Part shown: positions 1-61,000 of the stretch, in pieces
How positions within the stretch are numbered: position 1 is the first letter of the stretch
How the letters are laid out: each line of letters starts with the position of its first letter
DNA from: Limnomonas spitsbergensis
Taxonomy: Eukaryota > Chlorophyta > Chlorophyceae > Chlamydomonadales
Length of the DNA stretch: 64,000 nucleotides
Reading direction: 5' to 3'
NCBI GenBank assembly: GCA_037349105.1
Contig: JAYJMM010000028.1
Span: 4,216,001-4,280,000 of the forward strand
Notes under the pieces: generated by a model
What the model saw: only the letters and a program-made list of their open reading frames with translations
What the model was told of the DNA's origin: nothing
Databases searched by the model: none
Made by a program: the position numbers and the translations under genes

Positions 1-818
1 GATAATATCTCCCAGCTCATCATTTGGAACTGCTGCCTTTCAATCTCGTTTATATCAGCATGATTGCCCAGGGTCCACCCTTGTTCCATCTTGAAATGTT
101 TATCAGGTTCTACAGGGTCTGTTGGACTGTCAGGTGTCATATTATCTAAGGACCAAGATCCCTCAATAGGGACACCCTCATGAAGCTCATCAGGTGACAA
201 CAGATCGTTCAACAAGACTGGATCTGTGTAATGCTGAATATCTGCTGGGTAAGAGGTACCTATCTGCGTGACCAGACAAGTTCCTAGTACTTCTCTTGAA
301 TACTGGTCTCGTGCAATGCTGCGAGTTAGGTCAAATACCTGAGCTGGGGCATTGTGAGTTCTCATACTGTTAACAGGTGTGAACATAAATGTTGTGACTA
401 TCATCCATAGGTAGAAGAGCCATTGCATTATAGTGGGTTGCATTCTATGGAGATGCTGCGTTCTGCGAGTTATTGCAGGACCAGGTGACCGCACAGATTT
501 ACAGAAATCAAGTTTCAAAGTCAATTTGCGCAACCTGTCAGACCTAAGCTGTTCAGCCTTGATCTTGTCATCAGTAATCCTTTTTACCCTGCGGAACCCC
601 CTGACTCTCTTGGCCCAGAACTCAATAAGGATAGCAATACGCTTGGCGCGCAGCTGAGCAAGTTCCCTAGCTCTAGCACGACGCAGCCTAGGTTTGTTAC
701 CCAAGCTCTGCAGAGGAACAACATAAGCAGAGCCCCTGATGGGATGCGCAGGTCGAAAATTAGGATGACGCCTTCTGATGAGAGCCTCTAAACTGCACTT
801 CCTAGCCTGCGCAACGCT
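1..818 (-). pseudogene. Partial pol of the left retroelement copy, running off the window
   Basis: After the gag UGA the same frame continues with the residues seen in the right copy (for example LGNKPRLRRARARELAQLR and the hydrophobic stretch near 380-430). It reaches the window edge before the RT domain. A net two-base insertion around base 25 compared with the right copy breaks the frame, so I call it a broken partial copy. Nothing is visible of its RT. Confidence 0.55.
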
Positions 819-1772
819 TCAGGAGTCAGGGCGACCCAGAATCTCCTGAACGGTCACCTCTGCAACATCAGCAGCATATACTGCTATATCCGCTAAGATA
901 TCAGTTTTGTCCCTGCGCTCGCGGAACACGCAGTTGGCACCGAACACCTTCCACCACTCACGTACCTGCTCGTTGTCTTTACTACGAACAAGAATGGTGA
1001 GCGTCGCCATCATGTTAGGCGTGATGATGCTCTTAATCTCCTTGCGGTAAGATGGCGTGCCACGTCCATCATACCGGTAGGCAACCTCCGTAGATGTTGG
1101 AGGGACAAACGACCTCGCTGGGCTGCGCAGCTGTCTTGAGGAACCGCCAGCGCTGGATGGAGCGTCGAGAGGCTCAGAGGCCACCGCCGCTAGACCATCG
1201 AGGTCCATGCGGTTAAGTCCAGACTCGCCCGCTGCTTCTTCTGGAATGGGCCGGAGGAGGTTATGCTGATCCAGGTCACGGTTCAGCTCTGCCTCCCTTG
1301 CCTGCAGCTTCCTCAGCTGCTTGCGCGTCTTGCGCTCCTTCCGCTCCTCTTCGCTGAGCGGTGGCTTGGGCGCCCTCACTAGAGGAGGTGCCTCATCACC
1401 ACCGGACGTCCGGGCCCCATGCATGCCCTGAGGCGGTTGCATCAGCCCTTCAGTCTGGCTCCTTCCACCAGCCAGGTTTTCACCACTGCCGCGGTTGGAG
1501 CCGGAGGCGCCGCCAGTTGCCTTGCGCTTAGTTAAAGACGCGGCTTGGCGGCGCCTGTCTTCTGTCCTGGCGATAGCTGCTGCTCGCTCCTTGAGAAGAA
1601 TCCGCGCTGAAGCGTTGATGATTTTATAGCCATCGCTGATGACGGCCTTGTCGCTGGCCCGTTGAGCATGGTCGCGGTCAGCCTTGCTGATGTTGGGCTG
1701 TCTAGGCATCTGAGGGTGTGATAAGTGATAAGAATTAGTCATCACATCATTGGATAATAAACAGCACTTCAT
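819..1772 (-). CDS. Gag-like ORF of the left retroelement copy
   Basis: A 317-residue ORF starting MKCCLLSNDV and ending GRPDS before UGA. It is nearly identical to the ORF at 10129-11082 (a handful of substitutions such as K/R, A/D and N/D). No known domain is recognised; the middle is basic and charged (EERKERKTRKQLRKLQ) and the N-terminal third is rich in Arg, Lys and Ala, as expected of a nucleic-acid-binding Gag. Its position directly before the RT reading frame, and in the same frame, supports a Gag role by context only. The following frame stays open after the UGA (see the right copy). Confidence 0.6.
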   Translation of the reverse strand: MKCCLLSNDVMTNSYHLSHPQMPRQPNISKADRDHAQRASDKAVISDGYKIINASARILLKERAAAIARTEDRRRQAASLTKRKATGGASGSNRGSGENLAGGRSQTEGLMQPPQGMHGARTSGGDEAPPLVRAPKPPLSEEERKERKTRKQLRKLQAREAELNRDLDQHNLLRPIPEEAAGESGLNRMDLDGLAAVASEPLDAPSSAGGSSRQLRSPARSFVPPTSTEVAYRYDGRGTPSYRKEIKSIITPNMMATLTILVRSKDNEQVREWWKVFGANCVFRERRDKTDILADIAVYAADVAEVTVQEILGRPDS

Positions 1773-2072
1773 GACAACCTTTAAACAAGTACTAATATAC
1801 TCTTACAAAGCTTATAGTAGGAGCTTCTCGATCCACTGCTGTAACTCAGTGAACTCAGCTCGATAACAGGTGATAGCTCTTGCTACTTCACCTGGACTTC
1901 TTCGATGATGTTGACAGGATCTCGTAAAGCCTCGACTCTTGAGGTACTTATAGGTTTCTTGGGACGACCTTGGGCGAATGTGGCCGTTGATCTGCTGTGT
2001 TGAGTCGCTTGCTTGGCTACTTCTGGTGATTGAAGATATCTCTGATGAATCAGATGGTCGACTTGGAGCCAA

Positions 2073-3359: not shown

Positions 3360-4352
3360 TTAACGGATGAACGTGTGCATTGGTGGGATCATCCGAGCAC
3401 GGATAGCTGCCGTTGCAAACACAAGGATCCATACTTTATTGCTGCAGCAACCGTGAATGGACATGTTAACTCCCAGACATGCTGTGAAGCTGACAGACTG
3501 CAAAATGACAAGCCGCCTTTCTCTCCGTAGTTGGGACAGCCACTCAAACCTTGCAGAATGACACTTAAGGAAATCTTGGGTGACTAAGCAGCATGCCACA
3601 TGACGTGCGTACTTGACCGCAAGAGCACAGGAGATGTCAGCGTATTCAGCCGGAGGGTTTGTGATAAGGACATGCAGGCCATGCTGTCGTAGCAGAAACT
3701 CGTAGGTGGAGGGTTGCAGTGGATCAGCACAGTAGTCTGCAGGGATGTTGACACCGATGCCCGAGTTGGTGAGAACATGGAGGGATCGAGGGTAAGGGTA
3801 AAGCTGACTGTTCTGCGGGAGTTCGGTGGCGTTTCCATTATCCTTGAACAGCAAAAGAATGCTGGGGGACAGGGACAAGTCAAGGCAGTCCAGCAGGGTG
3901 TTGCAGTCACTGTCTTCAATGGTGAGAGGTGAAGGAGGGTAGAGTTGGTACGACCATCCTGCCGGCACCCTGTTGCCCAAGTAGACAGCCACCTCATCGC
4001 GCTCTCGCAAAACTCCCGGCATCAGCGAATTCAGGGCATCCACCGCATCTCCACGGACACCCCAGTTGATGAAATCTGGGGGCACCCAAGGATGAGTGAC
4101 ATGGCTCTCGAACCTTTTGTTGGGGACGCGGATTCTCACGGAAGCACGGGTAGGTCGCTGATCATCAGGTTGCACCTCCGCAGCGATTTCCTCATTGCTG
4201 CCAACTGCGACGGTCCCGGCAAGCTCGACCGCATTGCTTCCGGCACCGCCTGCGGCGGTCCCGGCAAGACAATCTGCGTCCTCTTCCCTGTCTTCAGCGG
4301 TTCCTTCTTCTTCACCCTCAACAAGGCCACCGCCTATGGCGGCTCCCATCAC
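3360..4352 (-). CDS. Last ORF of the retroelement; N6-adenine-methyltransferase-like motif
   Basis: A 330-residue ORF in the integrase frame, separated from the integrase by UAG and UGA codons. Residues 1-90 are acidic and low in complexity. The region around residue 225 reads LHVLITNPPAEYADI, followed by an Ala-rich helix, CCLVTQDFL, a run ending FEWLSQLRRERRLVIL, and later NKVWILVFATA. The order NPP, helix, hydrophobic strand, R-rich RLVI strand, then a VWIL strand resembles phage-type Dam and related N6-adenine methyltransferases, whose motif IV is (D/N/S)PP(Y/F/W). Here the residue after NPP is Ala, not aromatic, so activity is doubtful. The function is an inference from motif order; a retroelement accessory protein of unknown role is the alternative. 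Confidence 0.45.
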   Translation of the reverse strand: MMGAAIGGGLVEGEEEGTAEDREEDADCLAGTAAGGAGSNAVELAGTVAVGSNEEIAAEVQPDDQRPTRASVRIRVPNKRFESHVTHPWVPPDFINWGVRGDAVDALNSLMPGVLRERDEVAVYLGNRVPAGWSYQLYPPSPLTIEDSDCNTLLDCLDLSLSPSILLLFKDNGNATELPQNSQLYPYPRSLHVLTNSGIGVNIPADYCADPLQPSTYEFLLRQHGLHVLITNPPAEYADISCALAVKYARHVACCLVTQDFLKCHSARFEWLSQLRRERRLVILQSVSFTACLGVNMSIHGCCSNKVWILVFATAAIRARMIPPMHTFIR

Positions 4353-4385
4353 CCTTCATGCCTTCTTTTGCTTAGCAGGCCGCAG

Positions 4386-6010
4386 CTAATAAACTGTCAC
4401 GGCGGCCGCTGGTTCCTCCAGTTCTGCCGCAACATCTCGTCGTGCAGCACCAGTAGCGTCAGCTCCCGCAGTCCTGCATTGCTCACAAATCCAGTAACCA
4501 GCAGGGACAGTAGTAAGCCGTGGTACCAAACAGTACGTGTGAGTGCCTCGACCACAACTACCGCATATAATCATTTTCTTATCGTTAACAGGCAGCAGAC
4601 ATCTCTGACAAGGGAAGTCTGGTGCTGGCTTTTGCCATCTTTTGGATGGGGGTAAGAGTCCCTCTATGGGCAGATGACATGGCGCACAGTTAATAGCGTT
4701 CTCAGCCACAGTCACCCCGTTGCGACCAACCATGACAAAAACTCCACTTGGCCGTACATCGAACACCCGAAGCACGTAAGGTCTCGCAGTGGAGTGCAAT
4801 CGGTTCTCATCCCGTACATACACAAACTGCCCCTCAGTATACTTAGCTATTGATGGAAGGTAAGCACCACTACGAAGCCTTGCGTAACGCAGGGTATCTC
4901 GCTGTTGAGCCACCAGAAGATTCTGGCCGACCATCACGCAGTTCTTGGCTAGTAATTCAGAACGGAACAGTACAAGTTCAGCAGCAGCATCCACATCCAG
5001 GTAATCCACTGCCTGATCCCCATTCAACCTTTCCATGATAGCAGGAGGGATGACTGGTTCACAGGAAAACAGCAGCTGGTAGGGACTCATCAAAGTGCTG
5101 GCATGCTTTGTGACTCGGTACCCGAGTGCTATCCAGGGCAAATACATGTCCCATTCTCGAGGCTCTCTTGAAACGTGCAAATGCCTTGATAATGCAGTTT
5201 TTACTGTCTTCACCAGCCTTTCCGCTTGCCCATTGGCTTGGGGATGGAAGGAACTGGTGACTCTATGATCAATCATGGCACGGACAAGCAGTGAGTCCAT
5301 TTCACCTTGAAACTCCCCACCACCGTATGTGACTACTTCAGCGCATGCCCCAAATCGTGCCAATATGCCGTGCAGGAAATGATAAGCTACTTCTTTAGAC
5401 GATTTAGCAGTCATGGGAAATACCTCAACCCATTTAGAGTAGCTTTCTACAGCTACCATAACATAGGTGTGACCACGGTAAGAAGCCGTGTAAGGACCAG
5501 AAAGATCCAGGTGCCAACGGTACATAAGTCCTCTGATGGGTAAGGGATGCATAACAGGCTGCATAGCATTGAACGATACTTTAGTGTAATCACAGGCCTC
5601 ACAGCACTGGACCACTCTCTTGCAGTCATTATATAATCCAACCCACCAGTGGGTCATCATGACAAGCCCCGTTGTGCGGCGCCTGCCATAATGACCATTT
5701 TCTACATGCATTTTGTGCACGAGTGCCAACCGGTCACCAGGGGGTGGTACCACCTTGGTTGTACCGCCTGGCATTCGACGATATAGAATATTCTTCTCAG
5801 CGGACCAGAGATAAAGCGCGGCTCGTCGTTGAAGAAGCTTGCGTTCTACAGGGGTCAGCATGGGCAACATTGTATCAGTGGTACGCCTCAGATATTGCAT
5901 AGCATTATTATCCAACCAGATATCTGCGAATGAGTGAGACTCTTCCTCACGGGTGATGGGCTGCTCTATCAACTCAGCCGCTAAGGACTGAGCAGCTGAG
6001 CTGCGTGTAA
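4386..6010 (-). CDS. Retroelement integrase with C-terminal PHD finger
   Basis: The ORF is open from about 6010 (no ATG; 5972 is only the first alternative start), so it was probably part of a polyprotein. Domains in order: HHCC zinc-binding domain (HVENGHYGRR, then CCEAC), catalytic core (WHLDLSGPY with the first Asp, VVTYGGGEFQG, and HPQANGQAERLVKTVK with the Glu), and a C-terminal region with C-x2-C, C-x2-C, H-x2-C, C-x2-C spacing (CQRC, CGSC, HTYC, CEQC), a PHD-type C4HC3 zinc finger. Integrase joins cDNA to the chromosome; PHD fingers bind histone H3 tails, so this one may direct insertion. The second catalytic Asp is replaced by Tyr (codon at 5325-5327), so this copy should be inactive. 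Confidence 0.85.
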
Positions 6011-6012
6011 GA

Positions 6013-7362
6013 TCAGAGAATCTCCAGCAGCAAACAAATGATTAAGCTGCTGAGATATCTGATCACCATTCCCCCCCAGCTCCAGTCCTGAAGTGGCAAA
6101 AGAGTGAGGAAAAAGTTATTGAAGGCAGAAAAAATTTCCTGCGAAGGAGGAACCGCTACAAAGCGAATTGCAAAGCCAACGGCAATCAGGTGACTGACAG
6201 CATTAGAATCAAAAGCTCCTCCAACTATCCTGTGACGCACAGAGAAGATTAAGTCTTTACCAGCAGTACAATCAGTGGCATATCCCATGGCACGTTCACG
6301 CTCATGAATGGTGAGAGCGTGTCTAGTGAAAACTCCTGTCTGATCTGTTTCCAAAACAAGTCCAGGTTCATATTCAGGGTTGGGTCGAAACGCATAAGAT
6401 TCAATCCTTGCAACCATTGTAGGAAAAACCCGTAGAGGTTCGTTCAAGATGTTGGCTGGATGATATGGGTACCTGTTAACTTTGAAACAGATACGGGGTT
6501 CTCTTCCATGATCCAGTATGTCAGTCAGGCGCAATGTATCATCACGAACAAAGGACATCATCACCAACTGCAGAGAAGTGGGGTAACATATATTCTGTCA
6601 ATAATTACGCAAGCGGTGGGCATAGCTGCCGACAGCAACCGCGTCAAAGCAAACTGGGTGTCCCAGCCTCTCCGTAAGCTCCTGGAGCCCTTCTCTCATA
6701 GCCTGCGACTTTGCAATAGCAAATTGTACAGCAACATTCTCAATGAAGTACATAGGTGGGCGTCTACCTTGTTGCATGTGTTGGAGAGATCCAAAAATTC
6801 TAATAAGAGGGGAAAAGGTAGAGCTCTTATCTCCCTGCAGTCATGTACGTTTCCCTGCAGAGGATAGATCAGTACACATAAATCCTGCTGTCAGCATCCA
6901 TTGGGTACCATCAAGGCATCCAATGTCAATGATATGTCTTTCATTAATGGCGTAAACATCCTGAGGCTGTCGGTTGAAAGTATTAGCAACAGCATCATGA
7001 CTTAGGAGATTAGGATATTCTTCCATGAGTAATCTAAGTTTGTGCTTAGCACATGCCCTTGCACCATTATCAATGTCAGCATAGTAATAGTGGTTGATGC
7101 GCATGCCATTTCTTAGCATACATTCTAATCCACCGCACATGCCACCAAAAAGCTCAATCAAGGAAACACCTTCTTGCACAGCAGTAATAATGCTGGTTTG
7201 GGGAACAGGTGTTGAATTTATGGACTGAATCCCTTTTCCCACAGGATTGCCCTCATGTGAATGCTCTTGCACCTGTAGTGAGGTATAATGGGAAGGGGGC
7301 AATTCCTGCAAATGCAGTCGACATTCTTCGACACGTGAAGACGCTGTCCCTCTTAAAGCTTT
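6013..7362 (-). pseudogene. C5-cytosine DNA methyltransferase-like domain inside the retroelement, broken by stops
   Basis: Translation in the frame of the upstream RT shows the C5-MTase motifs in canonical order: motif I VSLIELFGGMCGGLE, motif IV GFMCTDLSSAGKR with the catalytic Cys (normally preceded by Pro, here Met), motif VI YFIENV, a motif VIII-like AHRLRNY, motif IX RHALTIHERERAMGY and motif X RHRIVGGAFDSNAVSHLI. Known enzymes of this family methylate cytosine C5 through the motif IV Cys with help from the motif VI Glu. A UGA at 6841 sits where a Gly is expected just after GKRT, and another UGA at about 6598 where a Trp would fit; past motif X the frame shifts near a G7 run at about 6080. 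There is no ATG before motif I, so it was probably made as part of the polyprotein. It lies between RNase H and integrase. Confidence 0.75.
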
Positions 7363-10128
7363 TTATTTTTCGGACAGAGAATCCATCTGCGGCACATGGA
7401 TACGGGTGGAAAATGAAGAAATGCCATTAATTTCGGATTCAAAAGCAGCCTCAGTGTCATATGCGTTGCAGCAGCTCATTTCATACATGTCATCAGGATA
7501 CACGAGTGCAGTAGCTAATGAATGGATCTGGTTTGTAACAGATGGACCAAACGTGGGAGAGGGCCAAATGGCACGAGTCCTAGGCAGTCCTGGCCACTCA
7601 GTTGGCAGTGAAAAAGATACTTCAGTATTTTCAGAAATCTTTTGTAATCCAGTGATAACATGCTCCTTATCAGACGCCGGATCAGGATCGATTGCAGGTC
7701 CAAAGGGTGCTATGGGAAATCCCCAAGGGACTGCGCTCTGGGGAGTTCTTGACAAACACGCAGCCATGAGGGAATACGCTCGTTTAGAACTATTAGCGGT
7801 CAAATCAGTGTCTACACCTGATCCACAAAATGCAGAGTTGTAGTAAAAGGGCCACGTTGTCGCGAAATGACTCTCCTTTGTGCCTGTCCAGTCCAGGTCT
7901 GATTGGACAGGGAACCTGCTGGGGACATCAGCAACAATATGTTTAACACCTGGTTTATATTCAAGTTCATAGGAGAATGGAGATAGCATGACAGACCAGC
8001 GGGCAAACTGCCCTTCTAACTCTTTGTTAGACATTAACCAAGACAACCCTTTATGGTCACTTATTATCAAAAACGGTATTTTAGCCCCAAGCAGATAATA
8101 ACGGAAGGCTCTCACTCCCCATATTGCTGCTAACATTTCACCCTTGTAGGACCCATAATTAGCCTCATGCACATTGCAAGTCCTACTAATGCAGGCTACC
8201 AGATATTCCTTTCCATCATCATCCTTTTGGCCCAGAACGGCTGACATGCCTTTCTGGGACCAATCTGTGTGAAGGATGTAACGGCGATTTTTATCAGGTG
8301 TGCGCAATGCGTTACCAGGTTTGCAGAGCTCATCTTTTAGGTGTTCCCATGCTTTATCCCTCTCAGCTGTCCAAAGCCAAGGAGTGTCATTTTTAAACAA
8401 CTCTGTAAGGGGGCTGGAGATGACAGAGAAGTTAGGAACATAACATCGGTAATAATTAGCAAAGCCAATAACACGGCGTAGTTCATGCACAGTAGTGGGC
8501 GTGGGCAAAGCTCTGATTGCCAGAACCTTTGTTTCACTAGGTGAGATACCTGTTGTTCCAATCATGTGACCTAGGTACTCAAGACTGTTGAACAGAAACT
8601 CGCATTTTCCTGGATGCACCTTCATTTGACACTTTTTGAGGGCAGCAAACAGGATTTTAAGCGCCGCTTTATGCGACGCAAGATCTTTGGTGAAGACAAG
8701 GACATCATCTATAAAACATACACAACAGTGATCAAGACCTGCTTCAGTTATTACGGTATTCATAACCCTCTGAAAGTAGGCAGGCATGTTGGTAAGACCA
8801 AAAGTATTACGGTTAGTTTTCCAACACCTATCATTCCACCAGAATGCAGTCATGTCCCTACACTCTTCAGAGAGGGAAGTTTGACCGAATCCTGATTTCA
8901 TATCACAATCAGAGAAGACAGTGCAACCCTCAGTCCTTCCAAACAACTCTTCAGGCAAGGGTAGAGGGTACACGTCGGGAGGTGTAAATGCATTGATGCC
9001 TCCAGATGCTTTCCCATAGTTAATACAGCATCTTTTATCGGTCCATGCACCAGTTACGGGATCCTTTTTAGCAGCTATCACTGCTTCATGTATCATAAGA
9101 GGTCGTGCACACTCACTGATAAAGCCGGCTTCCATGAGAGGGGTCATGTGTATGTCCATGACTTCCTTCTCCATGGGCGACCTCCTGCGAGCTTTTCTGA
9201 GAATAATGCCTGGGGGCAAGGTTATAGTTTCTCCAGGGGGACCTATGGTGAAGGGAAGAACTGATCCTTCGTAACCTGTCAAGTCAGACAATTTATACGC
9301 ACTTTGCGCCTGGATAATATCTCCCAGCTCATCCTGGAACTGCTGCCTTTCAATCTCGTTTATATCAGCATGATTGCCCAGGGTCCACCCTTGTTCCATC
9401 TTGAAATGTTTATCAGGTTCTACAGGGTCTGCTGGACTGTCAGGTGTCATATTATCTAAGGACCAAGATCCCTCAATAGGGACACCCTCATGAAGCTCAT
9501 CAGGTGACAACAGATCGTTCAACAAGACTGGATCTGTGTAATGCTGAATATCTGCTGGGTAAGAGGTACCTATCTGCGTGACCAGCGAAGGTCCTGGTAC
9601 TTCTCTTGAATACTGGTCTCGTGCAATGCTGCGAGTTAGGTCAAATACCTGAGCTGGGGCATTGTGAGTTCTCATACTGTTTACAGGTGTGAACATAAAT
9701 GCTGTGACTATCATCCAGAGGTAGAAGAGCCATTGCATTATAGTGGGTTGCATTCTATGGAGATGCTGCGTTCTGCGAGTTATTGCAGGACCAGGTGACC
9801 GCACAGATTTACAGAAATCAAGTTTCAAAGTCAATTTGCGCAACCTGTCAGACCTAAGCTGTTCAGCCTTGATCTTGTCATCAGTAATCCTTTTTACCCT
9901 GCGGAACCCCCTGACTCTCTTGGCCCAGAACTCAATAAGGATAGCAATACGCTTGGCGCGCAGCTGAGCAAGTTCCCTAGCTCTAGCACGACGCAGCCTA
10001 GGTTTGTTACCCAAACTCTGCAGAGGAACAACATAAGCAGAGCCCCTGATGGGATGCGCAGGTCGAAAATTAGGATGACGCCTTCTGATGAGAGCCTCTA
10101 AACTGCACTCCCTAGCCTGCGCAACGCT
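7363..10128 (-). CDS. Retroelement reverse transcriptase and RNase H
   Basis: Open for about 920 codons directly after the gag UGA. The N-terminal part is basic, then a hydrophobic stretch (MQWLFYLWMIVTAFMF), then a linker. RT motifs: FSDCDMKSGFGQ, the catalytic FIDDVLVF (YxDD box, about residue 460), and KCEFLFNSLEYLGH. RNase H motifs: LHTDWSQKGMSAVLG, GEMLAAIWG and IISDHKGLSWL. The RT-RNase H order with gypsy-type boxes identifies a Ty3/gypsy-class Pol. No aspartic protease motif (DTG/DSG in the usual context) was found. The frame ends at UAA 7363, and the same frame then continues into the methyltransferase-like region. No ATG lies near its start, so expression by UGA readthrough from gag is likely. 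Confidence 0.9.
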   Translation of the reverse strand, partial: SVAQARECSLEALIRRRHPNFRPAHPIRGSAYVVPLQSLGNKPRLRRARARELAQLRAKRIAILIEFWAKRVRGFRRVKRITDDKIKAEQLRSDRLRKLTLKLDFCKSVRSPGPAITRRTQHLHRMQPTIMQWLFYLWMIVTAFMFTPVNSMRTHNAPAQVFDLTRSIARDQYSREVPGPSLVTQIGTSYPADIQHYTDPVLLNDLLSPDELHEGVPIEGSWSLDNMTPDSPADPVEPDKHFKMEQGWTLGNHADINEIERQQFQDELGDIIQAQSAYKLSDLTGYEGSVLPFTIGPPGETITLPPGIILRKARRRSPMEKEVMDIHMTPLMEAGFISECARPLMIHEAVIAAKKDPVTGAWTDKRCCINYGKASGGINAFTPPDVYPLPLPEELFGRTEGCTVFSDCDMKSGFGQTSLSEECRDMTAFWWNDRCWKTNRNTFGLTNMPAYFQRVMNTVITEAGLDHCCVCFIDDVLVFTKDLASHKAALKILFAALKKCQMKVHPGKCEFLFNSLEYLGHMIGTTGISPSETKVLAIRALPTPTTVHELRRVIGFANYYRCYVPNFSVISSPLTELFKNDTPWLWTAERDKAWEHLKDELCKPGNALRTPDKNRRYILHTDWSQKGMSAVLGQKDDDGKEYLVACISRTCNVHEANYGSYKGEMLAAIWGVRAFRYYLLGAKIPFLIISDHKGLSWLMSNKELEGQFARWSVMLSPFSYELEYKPGVKHIVADVPSRFPVQSDLDWTGTKESHFATTWPFYYNSAFCGSGVDTDLTANSSKRAYSLMAACLSRTPQSAVPWGFPIAPFGPAIDPDPASDKEHVITGLQKISENTEVSFSLPTEWPGLPRTRAIWPSPTFGPSVTNQIHSLATALVYPDDMYEMSCCNAYDTEAAFESEINGISSFSTRIHVPQMDSLSEK

Positions 10129-11082
10129 TCAGGAGTTAGGGCGACCCAGAATCTCCTGAACGGTCACCTCTGCAACATCAGCAGCATATACTGCTATATC
10201 CGCTAAGATATCAGTTTTGTCCCTGCGCTCGCGGAACACGCAGTTGGCACCGAACACCTTCCACCACTCACGTACCTGCTCGTTGTCTTTACTACGAACA
10301 AGAATGGTGAGCGTCGCCATCATGTTAGGCGTGATGATGCTCTTAATCTCCTTGCGGTAAGATGGCGTGCCACGTCCATCATACCGGTAGGCAACCTCCG
10401 TAGATGTTGGAGGGACAAACGACCTCGCTGGGCTGCGCAGCTGTCTTGAGGAACCGCCAGCGCTGGATGGAGCGTCGAGAGGCTCAGAGGCCACCGCCGC
10501 TAGACCATCGAGGTCCATGCGGTCAAGTCCAGACTCGCCCGCTGCTTCTTCTGGAATAGGCCGGAGGAGGTTATGCTGATCCAGGTCACGGTTCAGCTCT
10601 GCCTCCCTTGCCTGCAGCTTCCTCAGCTGCTTGCGCGTCTTGCGCTCCTTCCGCTCCTCTTCGCTGAGCGGTGGCTTGGGCGCCCTCACTAGAGGAGGTG
10701 CCTCATCACCACCGGACGTCCGGGCCCCATGCATGCCCTGAAGCGGTTGCATCAGCCCTTCAGTCTGGCTCCTTCCACCAGCCAGGTTTTCACCACTGCC
10801 GCGGTTGGAGCCGGAGGCGCCGCCAGTTGCCTTGCGCTTAGTTAAAGACGCGTCTTGGCGGCGCCTGTCTTCTGTCCTGGCGATAGCTGCTGCTCGCTCC
10901 CTGAGAAGAATCCGCGCTGAAGCGTTGATGATTTTATAGCCATCGCTGATGACGGCCTTGTCGCTGGCCCGCTGAGCATGGTCGCGGTCAGCCTTGCTGA
11001 TGTTGGGCTGTCTAGGCATCTGAGGGTGTGATAAGTGATAAGAATTAGTCATCACATCATTGGATAATAAACAGCACTTCAT
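10129..11082 (-). CDS. Gag-like ORF of the right retroelement copy
   Basis: A 317-residue ORF with ATG at 11082, nearly identical to that at 819-1772. No domain is recognised; it is charged and Ala/Arg-rich, consistent with a Gag structural protein. It ends at UGA (context TCC UGA AGC) and the frame continues straight into the RT ORF. Because UGA and frame are conserved in both copies, readthrough suppression is a reasonable way to make Gag-Pol. The role is inferred from position. Confidence 0.65.
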   Translation of the reverse strand: MKCCLLSNDVMTNSYHLSHPQMPRQPNISKADRDHAQRASDKAVISDGYKIINASARILLRERAAAIARTEDRRRQDASLTKRKATGGASGSNRGSGENLAGGRSQTEGLMQPLQGMHGARTSGGDEAPPLVRAPKPPLSEEERKERKTRKQLRKLQAREAELNRDLDQHNLLRPIPEEAAGESGLDRMDLDGLAAVASEPLDAPSSAGGSSRQLRSPARSFVPPTSTEVAYRYDGRGTPSYRKEIKSIITPNMMATLTILVRSKDNEQVREWWKVFGANCVFRERRDKTDILADIAVYAADVAEVTVQEILGRPNS

Positions 11083-11290
11083 GACAACCTTTAAACAAGT
11101 ACTAATAAACTCTTACAGAGCTTATAGCAGGAGCTTCTCGATCCACTGCTGTAACTCAGTGAACTCAGCTCGATAACAGGTGATAGCTCTTGCTACTTCA
11201 CCTGGACTTCTTCGATGCTGTTGACAGGATCTCGTAAAGCCTCGACTCTTGAGGTACTTATAGGTTTCTTGGGACGACCTTGGGCGAATG

Positions 11291-11350
11291 TGGCACTTCA
11301 TGGCGAAATGTGGCACTTCATGGCGAAATGTGGCACTTCATGGTGAAATG
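11291..11350. repeat. Three tandem copies of a 20-bp unit
   Basis: The unit tggcacttcatggcgaaatg is present three times, with one substitution in the last copy. It lies between the leader shared with the left copy and the 61-bp inverted repeat, where the two retroelement copies differ. Confidence 0.9.
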
Positions 11351-13373: not shown

Positions 13374-14130
13374 GAAGCTGCATGGCAGGGGAGGGGGGAG
13401 GGGGCAGAGGGATGCAGCTGCATGGCAGGGGAGGGGGGAGGGGGCAGAGGGATGCAGCTGCATGGCAGGGAGGGGGGGGGGGGCAGAGGGATGCAGCTGC
13501 ATGACAGGGAGGGGGCAGGGGGCAGAGGGATGCATCTGCATGGCAGGGGAAGGGGGAGGGGGCAGAGGGATGCATCTGCATGGCAGGGAGGGGGGGGGGC
13601 AGAGGGATGTAGCTGCATGGTGGGGGAGGGGGGAGGGGGCAGAGGGTTGCAGCTGCATGGCAGGGGAGGGGGGAGGGGGCAGAGGGATGCAGCTGCATGG
13701 CAGGGAGGGGGGGGGGCAGAGGGATGCAGCTGCATGCCAGGGAGGGGGAAGGAGGCAGAGGGATGCAGCTGCATGACAGGGGAGGGGGCAGAGGGATGCA
13801 GCTGCATGGCAGGGGAGGGGGCAGAGGGATGCAGCTGCATGGCAGGGGAGGGGGGAGGGGGCAGAGGGATGCAGCTCAATGACAGGGAGGGGGGAGGGGG
13901 CAGAGGGATACAGCTGCATGGCAGGGGAGGGGGGAGGGGGCAGAGGGATGCAGCTGCATGGTGGGGGAGGGGGGAGGGGGCAGAGGGATACAGCTGCATG
14001 CCAGGGAGGTGGGAGGTGGCAGAGGGATACAGCTGCATGGCTGGGAGGGGGGGGGGGTGTAGCTGCATGGCAAGGGGGTGGTGGGGAGGGGGGGCAGGGG
14101 GATGCAGCTGCGTGGCTGGGAGGGCGGGAG
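13374..14130. repeat. G-rich minisatellite, about 40-bp unit, roughly 19 copies
   Basis: The unit contains gcagctgcatggcagggg, then a run of G with few A, then cagagggat. Unit length varies because the G-tracts differ in length and some copies are shortened. Each unit includes an agctgcat near-palindrome and a G-tract of the kind that can form G-quadruplexes. The long ORFs through it on both strands are a consequence of the repeat and not evidence of protein. Confidence 0.95.
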
Positions 14131-14567
14131 CATGGGATGCAGCTCTTTGATAGCGAGGGAGGGGCTGCATGGCATATAGCTGCGTGGCAGGGATGCAGGT
14201 GCTGCTTACACTGATTGACGATATGCAGAAAATGTGTACTCAAACAGCCAGGTAAAGATAGATAGGGTGCATTTCCCCCTGCCCTCGCCCACTACCCATT
14301 TGTGCCTCCTTCATTTTCCCCAGCCTGAGCCCACTACCCATTCGTGCCTCCTTCATCTCCCCCTGCCCGAGCCCACTCCCCATTCGTGCCTCCTTCATCT
14401 CCCCAGCCCCAGCCTAATGCCCGTTCGTGCCTCCTTCATCTTCCCCAGCTCGATCCCACTACCCATTCGTGCCTCCTTCACCTCCCCTAGCCATTCAAAT
14501 TTGTAAATTTAGACCCAGCCCGGGCCTCATGCCCGTTCATGCATCCTTCACGCCCTCAATCCTCCAG

Positions 14568-58000: not shown

Positions 58001-61000
58001 AAGGGGCCATTCGTGTGAAGGGACCATTCTTGTGAAGGGGTCATTCAGGTTAAGGGGCCTGTCAGGTGAAGGAGTCGAATCTAGAGCCCCAAACCTCTTC
58101 GCTCAGACGCTCACCCCTGACATCCCAAGTGCTACAGGGGCGGAACCCTGAGGCCAGACTACTGAAAATACTGAACCCTGAGCAAAAATGAACACCGAAT
58201 GGGCTCTTGTGTCAGAAATCATGTGCAATGCTGGATGGGGCATGCCCCTTGATGCCTGGGAGTCTGGGACCTCCTGTCATGACGCCTCCGCTTTGGGTCA
58301 ACCTCTTTGCATTACAGCCTGCCCTCACACACCACCCATACATGACATGATGGTCTTCCTCGGTCACCCTAGCATCATGACAGCCCACCCTCACCTTGCA
58401 TTACAGTTATTCCTCATGATTGACACGGATCTGATGCGATAAGATCGCCTGATCATTCTTTCATGACACTGTATTCTGACCTCAAGTGTTACCCTTTCAT
58501 AGAAGTTCGTCCTCATATGGCACACAAGTATCATTATCTGACATGATAATCTTCCCTGATCACCCCTCAACATGACGTGAAAGCTCACCCTCAGATATTA
58601 TTATACCATGACATCACAGCATGCTATTCTGTTACCCTTTTATAATACGGGAGTTTGTCCTCATATGTCACACTTATATGAGATTATGCACTAATATATC
58701 TCCCCTGCCCATTGACTTCACATTGCGTGATTGCCCTGGTCGGGCATGCACTACCAGCTTATCACAAGCTGGAATGCATTACCATCTACCTGGAAGGAAG
58801 GCATGGATTAGGCTGGCATGGACTAGGCTGGCATGCACTAGGCTGGCATGGACTAGGCTGGCATGCATTAGGCTGGCATGGACTAGGCTGGCATGGACTA
58901 GGCTGGCATGGACTAGGCTGGCATGGACTAGGCTGGCATGCCTTAGGTTAGCATGGACTAGGCCGGCATGGACTAGGCTGGCATGCATAAGGCTGGCATG
59001 GACTAGGCTGGCATGGACTAGGCTGGCATGCATTAGGCTGGCATGGACTAGGCTGGCATACACTAGGCTGGAATTGACTAGGCTGGCATGGATTAGGCTG
59101 GCATGGATTAGGCTGGCATGCACTAGGCTGGCATGGACTAGGCTGGCATGCATTAGGCTGGCATGCACTAGGCTGGCATGGACTAGGCTGGCATGGACTA
59201 GGCTGGCATGCATTAGGCTGGTATGGAATAGGCTGGCATGTTCTAGGCGTTTTCAAAGGGGCCCTGCTGTCTGTGCTAGCATGCAGGGATGCACTGCCTT
59301 TGAAGCATGATCAAGGGTGGGACTGACTTTGCATAGAACCGCTGCATGCAAATCGTGTATAAAAAAACGCACCAACGCGATAATATTCTGCTTCCTCCGC
59401 TAGGTATTTCGCTGAGCTGAATCTTGAATGGACGTGTACAACCTGGAGGCAGTGATGGACTGAAGAAACTCAACACTTGCTTCACTTCCTGCTGCCCCCC
59501 GCCAGGTACTTTGCTGAGCTTGACTTTGAGTGGACGTACGACCTGGATGCAGTGCTGGCCATCACAAACCAGGTCATCAACCTTGTGGCGGAGACGGTGC
59601 GGACCTTCTACAAGTGCAACACCAACCCGGCCTACGTGGTCTCCATGCGCACGCCGTACAAGGTGGGGCGAGAGGGAGGGAGTCATACGTAGACTTTGTG
59701 CGCACGCTCTAGTGCCCCACATAGTTGGTCAAGTGGGTGCAGCATGAGGACGTATGCCCAGCAATGGACTGACCTTCAGGACTTCTCTGTTCAGCGAAGC
59801 TGGGCCATAAGTGTGTGGGGGTTTTAATCGTGTAAGTGTGTGTGAGGGAGGAAGGGGGGGGGGGGGTGAAGTACACGGAACAGCTGGGTATTGTGATTTT
59901 TAGGGTTTGGCTAGGCGTTGCAAGAGGCCGGGCCATATGGATCTCTCTGGATCCAGGTGGTTATCTGTCCGGTACAGGAAGCGGTATCGTCATGCTTACA
60001 GAGGTTGCAGATTCTGGGGCGTGGATGTCATCACTGCTTGTTATGAGAGAGGAGCATGGATGATGATGCAGCTGTTGGGGAAGGGTTGTGCCCTAGTAGC
60101 CAAAGTCAGCTTAATCCACGCCTTGTTGCCCGGACCAGCAACATGCCACTTTGTCTCTGCAATGACCTCCCATCTCTGCATTTACCTCCCCCTTACCTGG
60201 GCGCTGTCTGCCTCCTCCTTCCGCAGTCGCGCACCCCCAGGAAGTATGGTAAGGTGTTGCTGCTAAATTCCAGCTGCAGCACTGCCTACAATTGGGGGGA
60301 CTTGGGGCAGCAAAGCATGCTGCATGGTCCGTTGGCGAAAGGCTTGTCCCTGCTGGCCTTGGGGGGGATCACCCCGATGGGGCCTGCCTATAGTGGTATG
60401 GAACGCACTTGGAAAAAAAATGACCACCATCCCTTGTAAGCCCCCTTTTTCTTCTCCTGGCGCTGCTGCTGCCTCTGCTCACCCCAATATTCCCTCTCTA
60501 GGTGCATCTCAATTTCCCCGCCGTCATTACCACGGAACCCCTGGCGCATATGTGCCGAGATATGATTGTGGGGAGGTGCCGCGCAGAGCTGGACGCCGTC
60601 GTGGCAGTCAAGATGGACTGGGACCGTGTCATCGACTTTCCGCACGGGAGCTTCCGGCTTTTGGGGTCAAAAAAGGTAGGGACACTGTCAGGCACACCAT
60701 GTATTAAAATTGTACAGTGATCAGGCATACCGTGTATTAAATAGGGAGTAACAATTATCATAGACTTCCCGCACAGGAGCTTCAATCTGCTGGGGTCAAG
60801 ACAGGTTGACACAAATAGGAGAATAGGGATCGGCAAGCGGGGATGTAGCAGCAGAGGCATGGCTGGGGTTACTCATAGCCAAGTCATGGTTCTGATTTGA
60901 GCTTACAGCATGCTTGTGTAGCTGGATAGCGCGCTCTCCCTGGCTGGCTGAGGATTTGAGGCACAGTCCCCATGCAGTTTGTTTTTGAAATGCTTGGGGC

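Follow-up and report, generated by a model that had tools for sequence, protein, structure and literature searches.

Some members of the DNMT3 family of C5-cytosine methyltransferases sit in retrotransposons, and such cases have been reported in streptophytes and dinoflagellates (PMC12344493, in the part drawn on here). The closest to the element considered here is KnitGypsy-Dnmt3 of Klebsormidium nitens (de Mendoza et al. 2018), a multi-copy charophyte gypsy element with a Dnmt3 domain in Pol that is under purifying selection, and with, according to the legend of figure 4, a DIRS-like repeat layout alongside a DDE integrase. When the Klebsormidium domain was tried in yeast, no methylation resulted, in a test that the authors call inconclusive. 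SymbioDIRS-Dnmt3 and SymbioLINE-Dnmt of Symbiodinium likewise hold C5-methyltransferases in their coding regions, those of the DIRS elements methylating CpG in yeast, and DIRS elements with a Dam-like adenine methyltransferase also exist (all as described in the parts of PMC5890265 drawn on here). Among plant copia elements, BARE and EVADE make a spliced subgenomic RNA (PMC3735527 and PMC8892269, in part). At the level of titles and abstract openings, with subscription journals and preprints outside the scope, we found no report of a methyltransferase-bearing retroelement, or of an intron holding reverse transcriptase (RT), in a chlorophyte.

The family described here, from the green alga Limnomonas spitsbergensis, resembles KnitGypsy-Dnmt3 as set out in those parts of PMC5890265 in having a DNMT3-type methyltransferase in a gypsy Pol, DIRS-like repeats, purifying selection and many copies. 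It differs in its chlorophyte host and in a methyltransferase clade that stands apart from the K. nitens protein in our comparison (P0114), which presumably derives from KnitGypsy. A PHD finger, a conserved C-terminal domain that appears to be worn, a TGA ahead of Pol and the intron of family D go unmentioned in the parts of PMC5890265 by whose description the two were compared. The Symbiodinium elements are, by the same source, DIRS (tyrosine recombinase) and LINE elements, whereas the present family has a DDE (rve) integrase and 4-bp target duplications. With the Dam-bearing DIRS elements it shares a methyltransferase and split repeats, but its enzyme is of the C5 type and its terminal amino-methyltransferase-like domain is degenerate (NPPA, NPSP and HPAA in three subfamilies). 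Judged by the literature seen in part, then, the kind of element was published in 2018; what is new is the set of chlorophyte relatives with the order RT–methyltransferase–integrase, the conserved C-terminal domain and the putative RT intron of family D. Methyltransferase-bearing gypsy elements are thereby extended from one charophyte to chlorophytes (Pols of Chlamydomonas eustigma and Haematococcus lacustris, and a Cymbomonas protein).

The window copy and its methyltransferase domain

The window, a stretch of 64,000 nucleotides (G000:C28:4216001-4280000) from an assembly of 260 Mb, holds a copy of the element whose features all lie on the minus strand. An earlier note, made from the letters of this DNA, had recognised C5-methyltransferase motifs in order and in the same frame as RT–RNase H, and the analysis bears this out. 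The motifs lie in the frame 7362–6013, in phase with RT–RNase H, and the DNMT3-like core of the methyltransferase (MT), at 6157–7182, aligns without gaps (tblastn) to residues 983–1324 of an intact copy, P0001. Two in-frame stops, at 6841 and 6598, break this core. It is preceded by the N-terminal part of Pol (7363–10128; RVT_1 4e-21, RT_RNaseH 7e-28), which ends in a stop at 7363, and followed, after a frame change beyond about 6109, by the integrase and PHD finger (4386–6041; H2C2 1.2e-10, PHD 9.8e-9, rve 4.5e-6, the last scoring 27.3 bits, below its cut-off of 32.6). The remainder of Pol (3360–4355) consists of a linker and a conserved domain resembling a worn amino-methyltransferase, with NPPA in the window's subfamily. 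A 327-aa frame in the same phase precedes Pol (10129–11112), and its closing TGA is kept in the relatives examined.

At the 3′ side lies an LTR-like terminal repeat A of about 728 bp (1784–2511), matching the paired repeats of the C19 copy, which are 99.6% identical to one another. It is adjoined by a short repeat B (2514–2576) and by a run of C (2577–2584) that in the coding sense is a G8 polypurine tract immediately upstream of repeat B; the C84 copy has its polypurine tract likewise placed upstream of its second repeat A. At the 5′ side a partial repeat A (11092–11294) is fused straight onto the 327-aa frame, and Gag and protease are missing. This junction is matched whole or nearly so in three of 40 scored places, two of which are the window's own tandem copies: the 5′ part of a second copy lies head to tail with the first (1–1802), window positions 1–1984 being 98.8% identical to 9313–11294 and continuing into the repeat. 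The second copy shares the loss of Gag and protease. With in-frame stops, a frame change and no Gag–protease, the window copy is dead.

The Pfam DNA_methylase search that the earlier note proposed divided by copy. Pieces from the window fall short of the profile cut-offs because the copy is broken (PF00145, E 0.062 and 13.2 bits against a cut-off of 22; NCBIfam dcm, E 0.23, ranked behind an unrelated model at 0.05), and the genome was therefore searched for intact copies. One such copy exceeds the cut-off, with 25.2 bits within the whole Pol and 29.8 bits as a single domain; among 14 aligned members of the family, 13 have a PF00145 match at E ≤ 0.01. A profile of the 14 members finds DNMT3A as its best match in the PDB (3.4e-17), followed by DNMT3B, DRM and HhaI. 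The catalytic columns C103, E148, N149, R190 and R192 (Cys, Glu-Asn and Arg-x-Arg) are invariant in all 14 and correspond to motifs IV, VI and VIII, respectively. The pattern GF.C.DLS.AG is present in seven of 10 loci from the genome search, where L001 is the window copy; L007–L009 deviate at its last residue and keep the Cys. Two loci, L005 and L006, have a frameshift inside the MT domain. We regard the window feature as confirmed, at the level of sequence comparison: it is a C5-cytosine MT domain, and it sits in a gypsy-class Pol with RNase H before it and integrase after it.

Intact copies, repeats and relatives

The earlier note had named two outcomes that would refute it, the lack of a significant DNA_methylase match and the lack of other copies with the segment. 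Neither arose. Beside the PF00145 match above there is a family of copies: scanning the genome with the first MT piece as query gave a count of 152 matches, with 150 of 786 first-look candidates scored. This count includes the window copy, as well as places that were split into pieces. At least 25 rows among the matches listed lie in open frames of at least 2,000 aa, one with a stop inside the match. A single frame of 2251–2253 aa runs from RT through the last domain in the C99, C116 and C3 copies, and MT and C-terminal domain share one frame of this length in the three loci read to the end of Pol (L011, L013 and L015); in the C19 copy the frame is open up to the end of the sequence taken. In the C3 copy Pfam finds RVT_1, RNase H, DNA_methylase (25.2 bits), H2C2, rve (35.3 bits, cut-off 32.6) and PHD. 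The C99 and C3 copies are 16.4 and 16.5 kb long, and their terminal repeats measure 670 and 672 bp.

Intact copies carry, ahead of the 327-aa frame, one frame of some 1,100 aa that contains a CX2CX3HX4C motif and that we read as Gag-like, and another of 335 aa that resembles an aspartic protease (PF13650, E 0.0023, 19 bits, below the cut-off of 24.3). Two further frames lie between the protease and the 327-aa frame (L016:787-1548 and L016:1677-2750, minus), with dN/dS of 0.26–0.27 and 0.26–0.50. The TGA between the two same-phase frames before Pol is kept in eight of eight copies (window 10129–10131, L011, L013, L015, L017, L019, L021 and L029), as is the TGA before the protease frame in six of six (L012, L014, L016, L019, L021 and L029); stop readthrough and separate starts are alternative explanations.

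The repeats are split in the layout A1–coding–B1–A2–B2 in the C19, C84 and C70 copies, C99 retaining merely the last bases of B2; a B2 adjoining A2 was not seen in the C28 and C3 copies. Terminal repeats are 100% identical in C99, C3 and C84 (670–803 bp; the second C3 repeat is truncated in the sequence), 99.6–99.7% identical in C19 and C28 and 97.2% in C70, and there are therefore recent insertions among the copies. Both outer ends are present in four copies, two each from subfamilies A and C, and all four are flanked by 4-bp target duplications (GTTG, CAGC, ATAA and CACC, the last extending to 8 bp inside a CACC repeat). The duplications fall within the 4–6 bp of a gypsy (Ty3) LTR retrotransposon, and the element ends are TG...CA, as in that class. 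A G8 tract stands ahead of B1 in both C84 and the window, and we read the C84 B1/A2 junction as a joining of both ends of the element, separated by two bases. The ends are not those of a standard gypsy element, in that no identical, unsplit LTR is found at both; the family combines a DIRS-like repeat layout with a DDE integrase. Its assignment to the gypsy class, claimed in the earlier note, is borne out by the order RT–RNase H–DDE integrase and by the nearest solved relative, Ty3 Gag-Pol (1.4e-64). In Pfam scans of the window and the C3 copy there is no match to phage integrase (tyrosine recombinase), and rve and H2C2 are found instead. The window family is a high-copy gypsy-class retroelement of a green alga, represented in the window by a defective copy.

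Homologs of the MT occupy the same position in 21 proteins (E ≤ 0.001), which come from Chlamydomonas eustigma, Haematococcus lacustris and metagenomic sequence. In 23 proteins tested at 80% coverage we find RT in 17, MT in 23 and integrase in 21, and the placement of the MT between RNase H and integrase holds in the intact copies and, as the order RT–MT–integrase, in all 15 of the 23 that have the three parts. Moreover, RT and MT distances are congruent (Mantel r 0.75, 0 of 9999 permutations), the MT being a module that diverges in step with RT and integrase. A profile search gave 134 proteins at E ≤ 0.001; a Cymbomonas protein carries the domain, and P0114 of K. nitens, among the best 120 of the 134, is collinear with the family at 31% identity and also has DNMT3A as its best solved relative.

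The MT tree has 81 rows: 93 of 165 matching proteins passed coverage, P0076, four loci and DNMT3A were added, and 18 near-copies were removed. One clade of 57 rows (SH-aLRT 99) takes in all 22 rows marked as Pol-linked or chlorophyte plus 35 others; P0114 falls in another of 12 rows (SH-aLRT 100), and liverwort and metagenome rows form a third of 10 (96). The separation of P0114 from the chlorophyte MTs is that of a quick search, rooted on a single distant DNMT3A on a long branch and with no green-algal host DNMT3s among its rows. The earlier note had spoken of a further capture. That stands in so far as a chance insertion into one copy is excluded; the capture may be independent or one with that of the Klebsormidium gypsy element, which agrees in its type of domain and in its unusual repeat layout (PMC5890265, in the parts drawn on).

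In five pairs of subfamily A, dN/dS is 0.05–0.09 for the MT, 0.01–0.04 for RT–RNase H and 0–0.01 for the integrase, with 0.41–0.61 for the linker, where one pair lacks synonymous change. A broken copy whose pieces miss the profile cut-offs might also be expected if a fragment of a host methyltransferase had landed in it by chance, or if the motifs were fortuitous. Against this stand the 152 counted matches, the relatives in other chlorophytes and the constraint on dN/dS; the reading is vanishingly improbable, and fortuitous motifs or a single insertion are ruled out by the genome matches and the chlorophyte homologs.

Possible role of the methyltransferase

The explanation that we favour, with moderate confidence, is that the MT travels with RT and integrase and methylates the element's own cDNA, which we infer to be its most likely role, with a splice variant in family D. 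In intact Pol the order is RT, RNase H, DNMT3-like C5-methyltransferase, integrase, PHD finger and a last domain that is probably amino-methyltransferase-like and worn. The MT would be carried in the particle together with RT and integrase and would methylate CpG of the new cDNA before or at integration, a preference for CpG being suggested by its kinship with DNMT3 and by analogy with the SymbioDIRS result in yeast (PMC5890265, in the parts drawn on). An incoming copy would in that case bear a methyl mark suiting a CpG-methylated host, and it may be taken for self, gain protection, or undergo early silencing and for that reason be tolerated. Histone H3 at the target is probably what the PHD finger reads.

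This explanation is supported by the intact architecture, the constant order RT–MT–integrase, the RT–MT congruence, the invariant Cys, Glu-Asn and Arg-x-Arg, the dN/dS of 0.05–0.09, DNMT3A as the best solved relative, the recent copies, the target duplications and the CpG level of the window. Counting against it are a replaced proline in motif IV, the lack of a CpG footprint and the lack of yeast methylation by the Klebsormidium domain, as given in the parts of PMC5890265 drawn on here. As to the footprint, observed/expected CpG is 0.57 across the window from 12 to 64 kb, a value in line with a CpG-methylated genome, and 0.51–0.62 in eight of nine element stretches, with 0.73 in L023 and 0.69–0.74 in two repeats. 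The elements are not lower than the rest of the window, and an element-specific loss of CpG was therefore rejected. Why a selfish element should retain an enzyme of a kind that silences it is a question that long-read methylation calls can address in this alga, whose CpG-depleted genome holds several copies with identical repeats.

In 26 of 28 aligned rows another residue (M, E, A, S or D) stands in place of the Pro before the catalytic Cys of motif IV, giving GFMC, GFEC, GWEC and other variants. Among these rows the Pro is kept only in P0021 and P0022; it is retained in eight of nine more distant members examined, P0114 of K. nitens among them. Such a replacement would be expected of a domain that has lost its DNA-methylating activity and persists in Pol for a structural purpose or for binding DNA or RNA. 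The C-terminal domain of Pol offers a parallel, its motifs being lost under similar constraint: dN/dS is 0.03–0.08 in four pairs and 0.29 in a fifth (78 codons), so a worn fold can be kept. The invariance of the Cys, Glu-Asn and Arg-x-Arg columns in all 14 aligned members speaks against such a loss of activity, which we consider improbable.

We tentatively read the C-terminal domain as a worn amino-methyltransferase fold. Five columns are invariant in an alignment of 11 members, and the catalytic-motif site, where N6-adenine and other amino-methyltransferases have (D/N/S)PP(Y/F), reads SPPF, RPPA, NPPA, NPSP, HPAA and others. The weak methyltransferase matches come from one of the 11, P0015 (PF02086, 20.7 bits against a cut-off of 22; phrog_799, 3.3e-5), and another member has a Myb-like match at 0.0023, below its cut-off. 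The domain has no solved relative in the PDB at E ≤ 10, and its PHROG and Pfam matches are weak. The window's NPPA suggested that Pol might end in a functional N6-adenine methyltransferase, but subfamilies B and C have NPSP and HPAA there, and a second active enzyme is therefore not claimed.

Family D and its putative RT–RNase H intron

For a second, sister family, D, the MT region of a 4358-aa frame on C116 served as query: of 1653 candidates, 86 places were scored, and 24 rows have frames of at least 4,000 aa. A 5181-aa frame on C19, taken from two adjoining loci and with its last part beyond the sequence examined, contains CCHC, RT, RNase H, DNA_methylase (23.5 bits) and H2C2. RT is absent from the 4358-aa frame over its whole length (tblastn on all three pieces, Pfam on two). 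Base comparison of an RT-bearing copy (L040) with an RT-less one (L043) reveals that a piece of 1731 bp, or 577 codons (L040:6163-7892), is missing in the latter. Three placements of its ends are equivalent, and one of them begins GTGAGT and ends CATTCCCTTGCAG, the standard form of an intron. The GTGAGT donor is present in all six RT-bearing loci read (L040 and L048–L052), and an identical in-frame join in all six RT-less copies read (L023 and L043–L047). Moreover, the acceptor CAG of the RT-bearing loci is followed by the bases that RT-less copies of their own lineage have beyond the join (L048–L050 with L023, L040 and L051 with L043, L052 with L045), a comparison that covers L023, L043 and L045, since L044 and L047 have no RT-bearing relative among the loci read. 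In 31 of the 86 places the match begins no later than query residue 28 and extends across the join side; the join is present in all six of these that were read. Splicing of an in-frame RT–RNase H intron is thus indicated by the sequences, and the spliced RNA appears to have been copied back into the genome more than once.

The spliced protein would consist of Gag, MT and integrase without RT. As in BARE and EVADE, known here from parts of the sources named above, family D splicing would give a Gag product apart from RT. In those two elements the spliced RNA reportedly leaves Gag alone, whereas the spliced frame of family D would keep MT and integrase joined to Gag. We tentatively suggest, as a scenario somewhat short of probable, that unspliced RNA yields Gag–RT–MT–integrase and spliced RNA Gag–MT–integrase, that the MT is thereby delivered independently of RT, that spliced RNA is recopied as RT-less MT elements, and that the MT is a selected, transmissible cargo.

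Among family D copies dN/dS of the MT is 0.04–0.08, with one pair lacking synonymous change and 0.30 for L043 against L040 at a dS of 0.004; at so low a dS, the loss of RT in L043 must be recent. Selection on the MT after RT loss is not separable from earlier selection because RT was apparently lost several times from RT-bearing lineages, and the divergence of the MT may mostly precede these losses. The RT-less form, which is numerous (31 of 86 places) and retains MT with Gag and at least part of the integrase, would suit an enzyme whose targets, in trans, are host chromatin or older copies and not the element's own cDNA, with a self-limiting or counter-silencing effect; the PHD finger in Pol of the window family likewise suggests contact with chromatin. 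The case is weakened in that, with an apparently repeated origin of RT-less copies, MT selection after RT loss does not stand out from that before it, and we judge action in trans unlikely.

In the window family, L002 and L007–L009 have no RT upstream of Pol residue 764. In L005 and L006, compared with L017:6523, repeat A is fused to an ATG directly after CCGCAG, at the start of the MT. A canonical splice from LTR to MT start is doubtful for these two loci, the CCGCAG being acceptor-like but the donor side not GT. A tandem arrangement like that of the window is seen in family copies on C120 (L025 and L026; about 8.3 kb). The window also contains long minisatellite arrays at 13376–14192 and 58800–59248, with units of about 40 and 15 bp.
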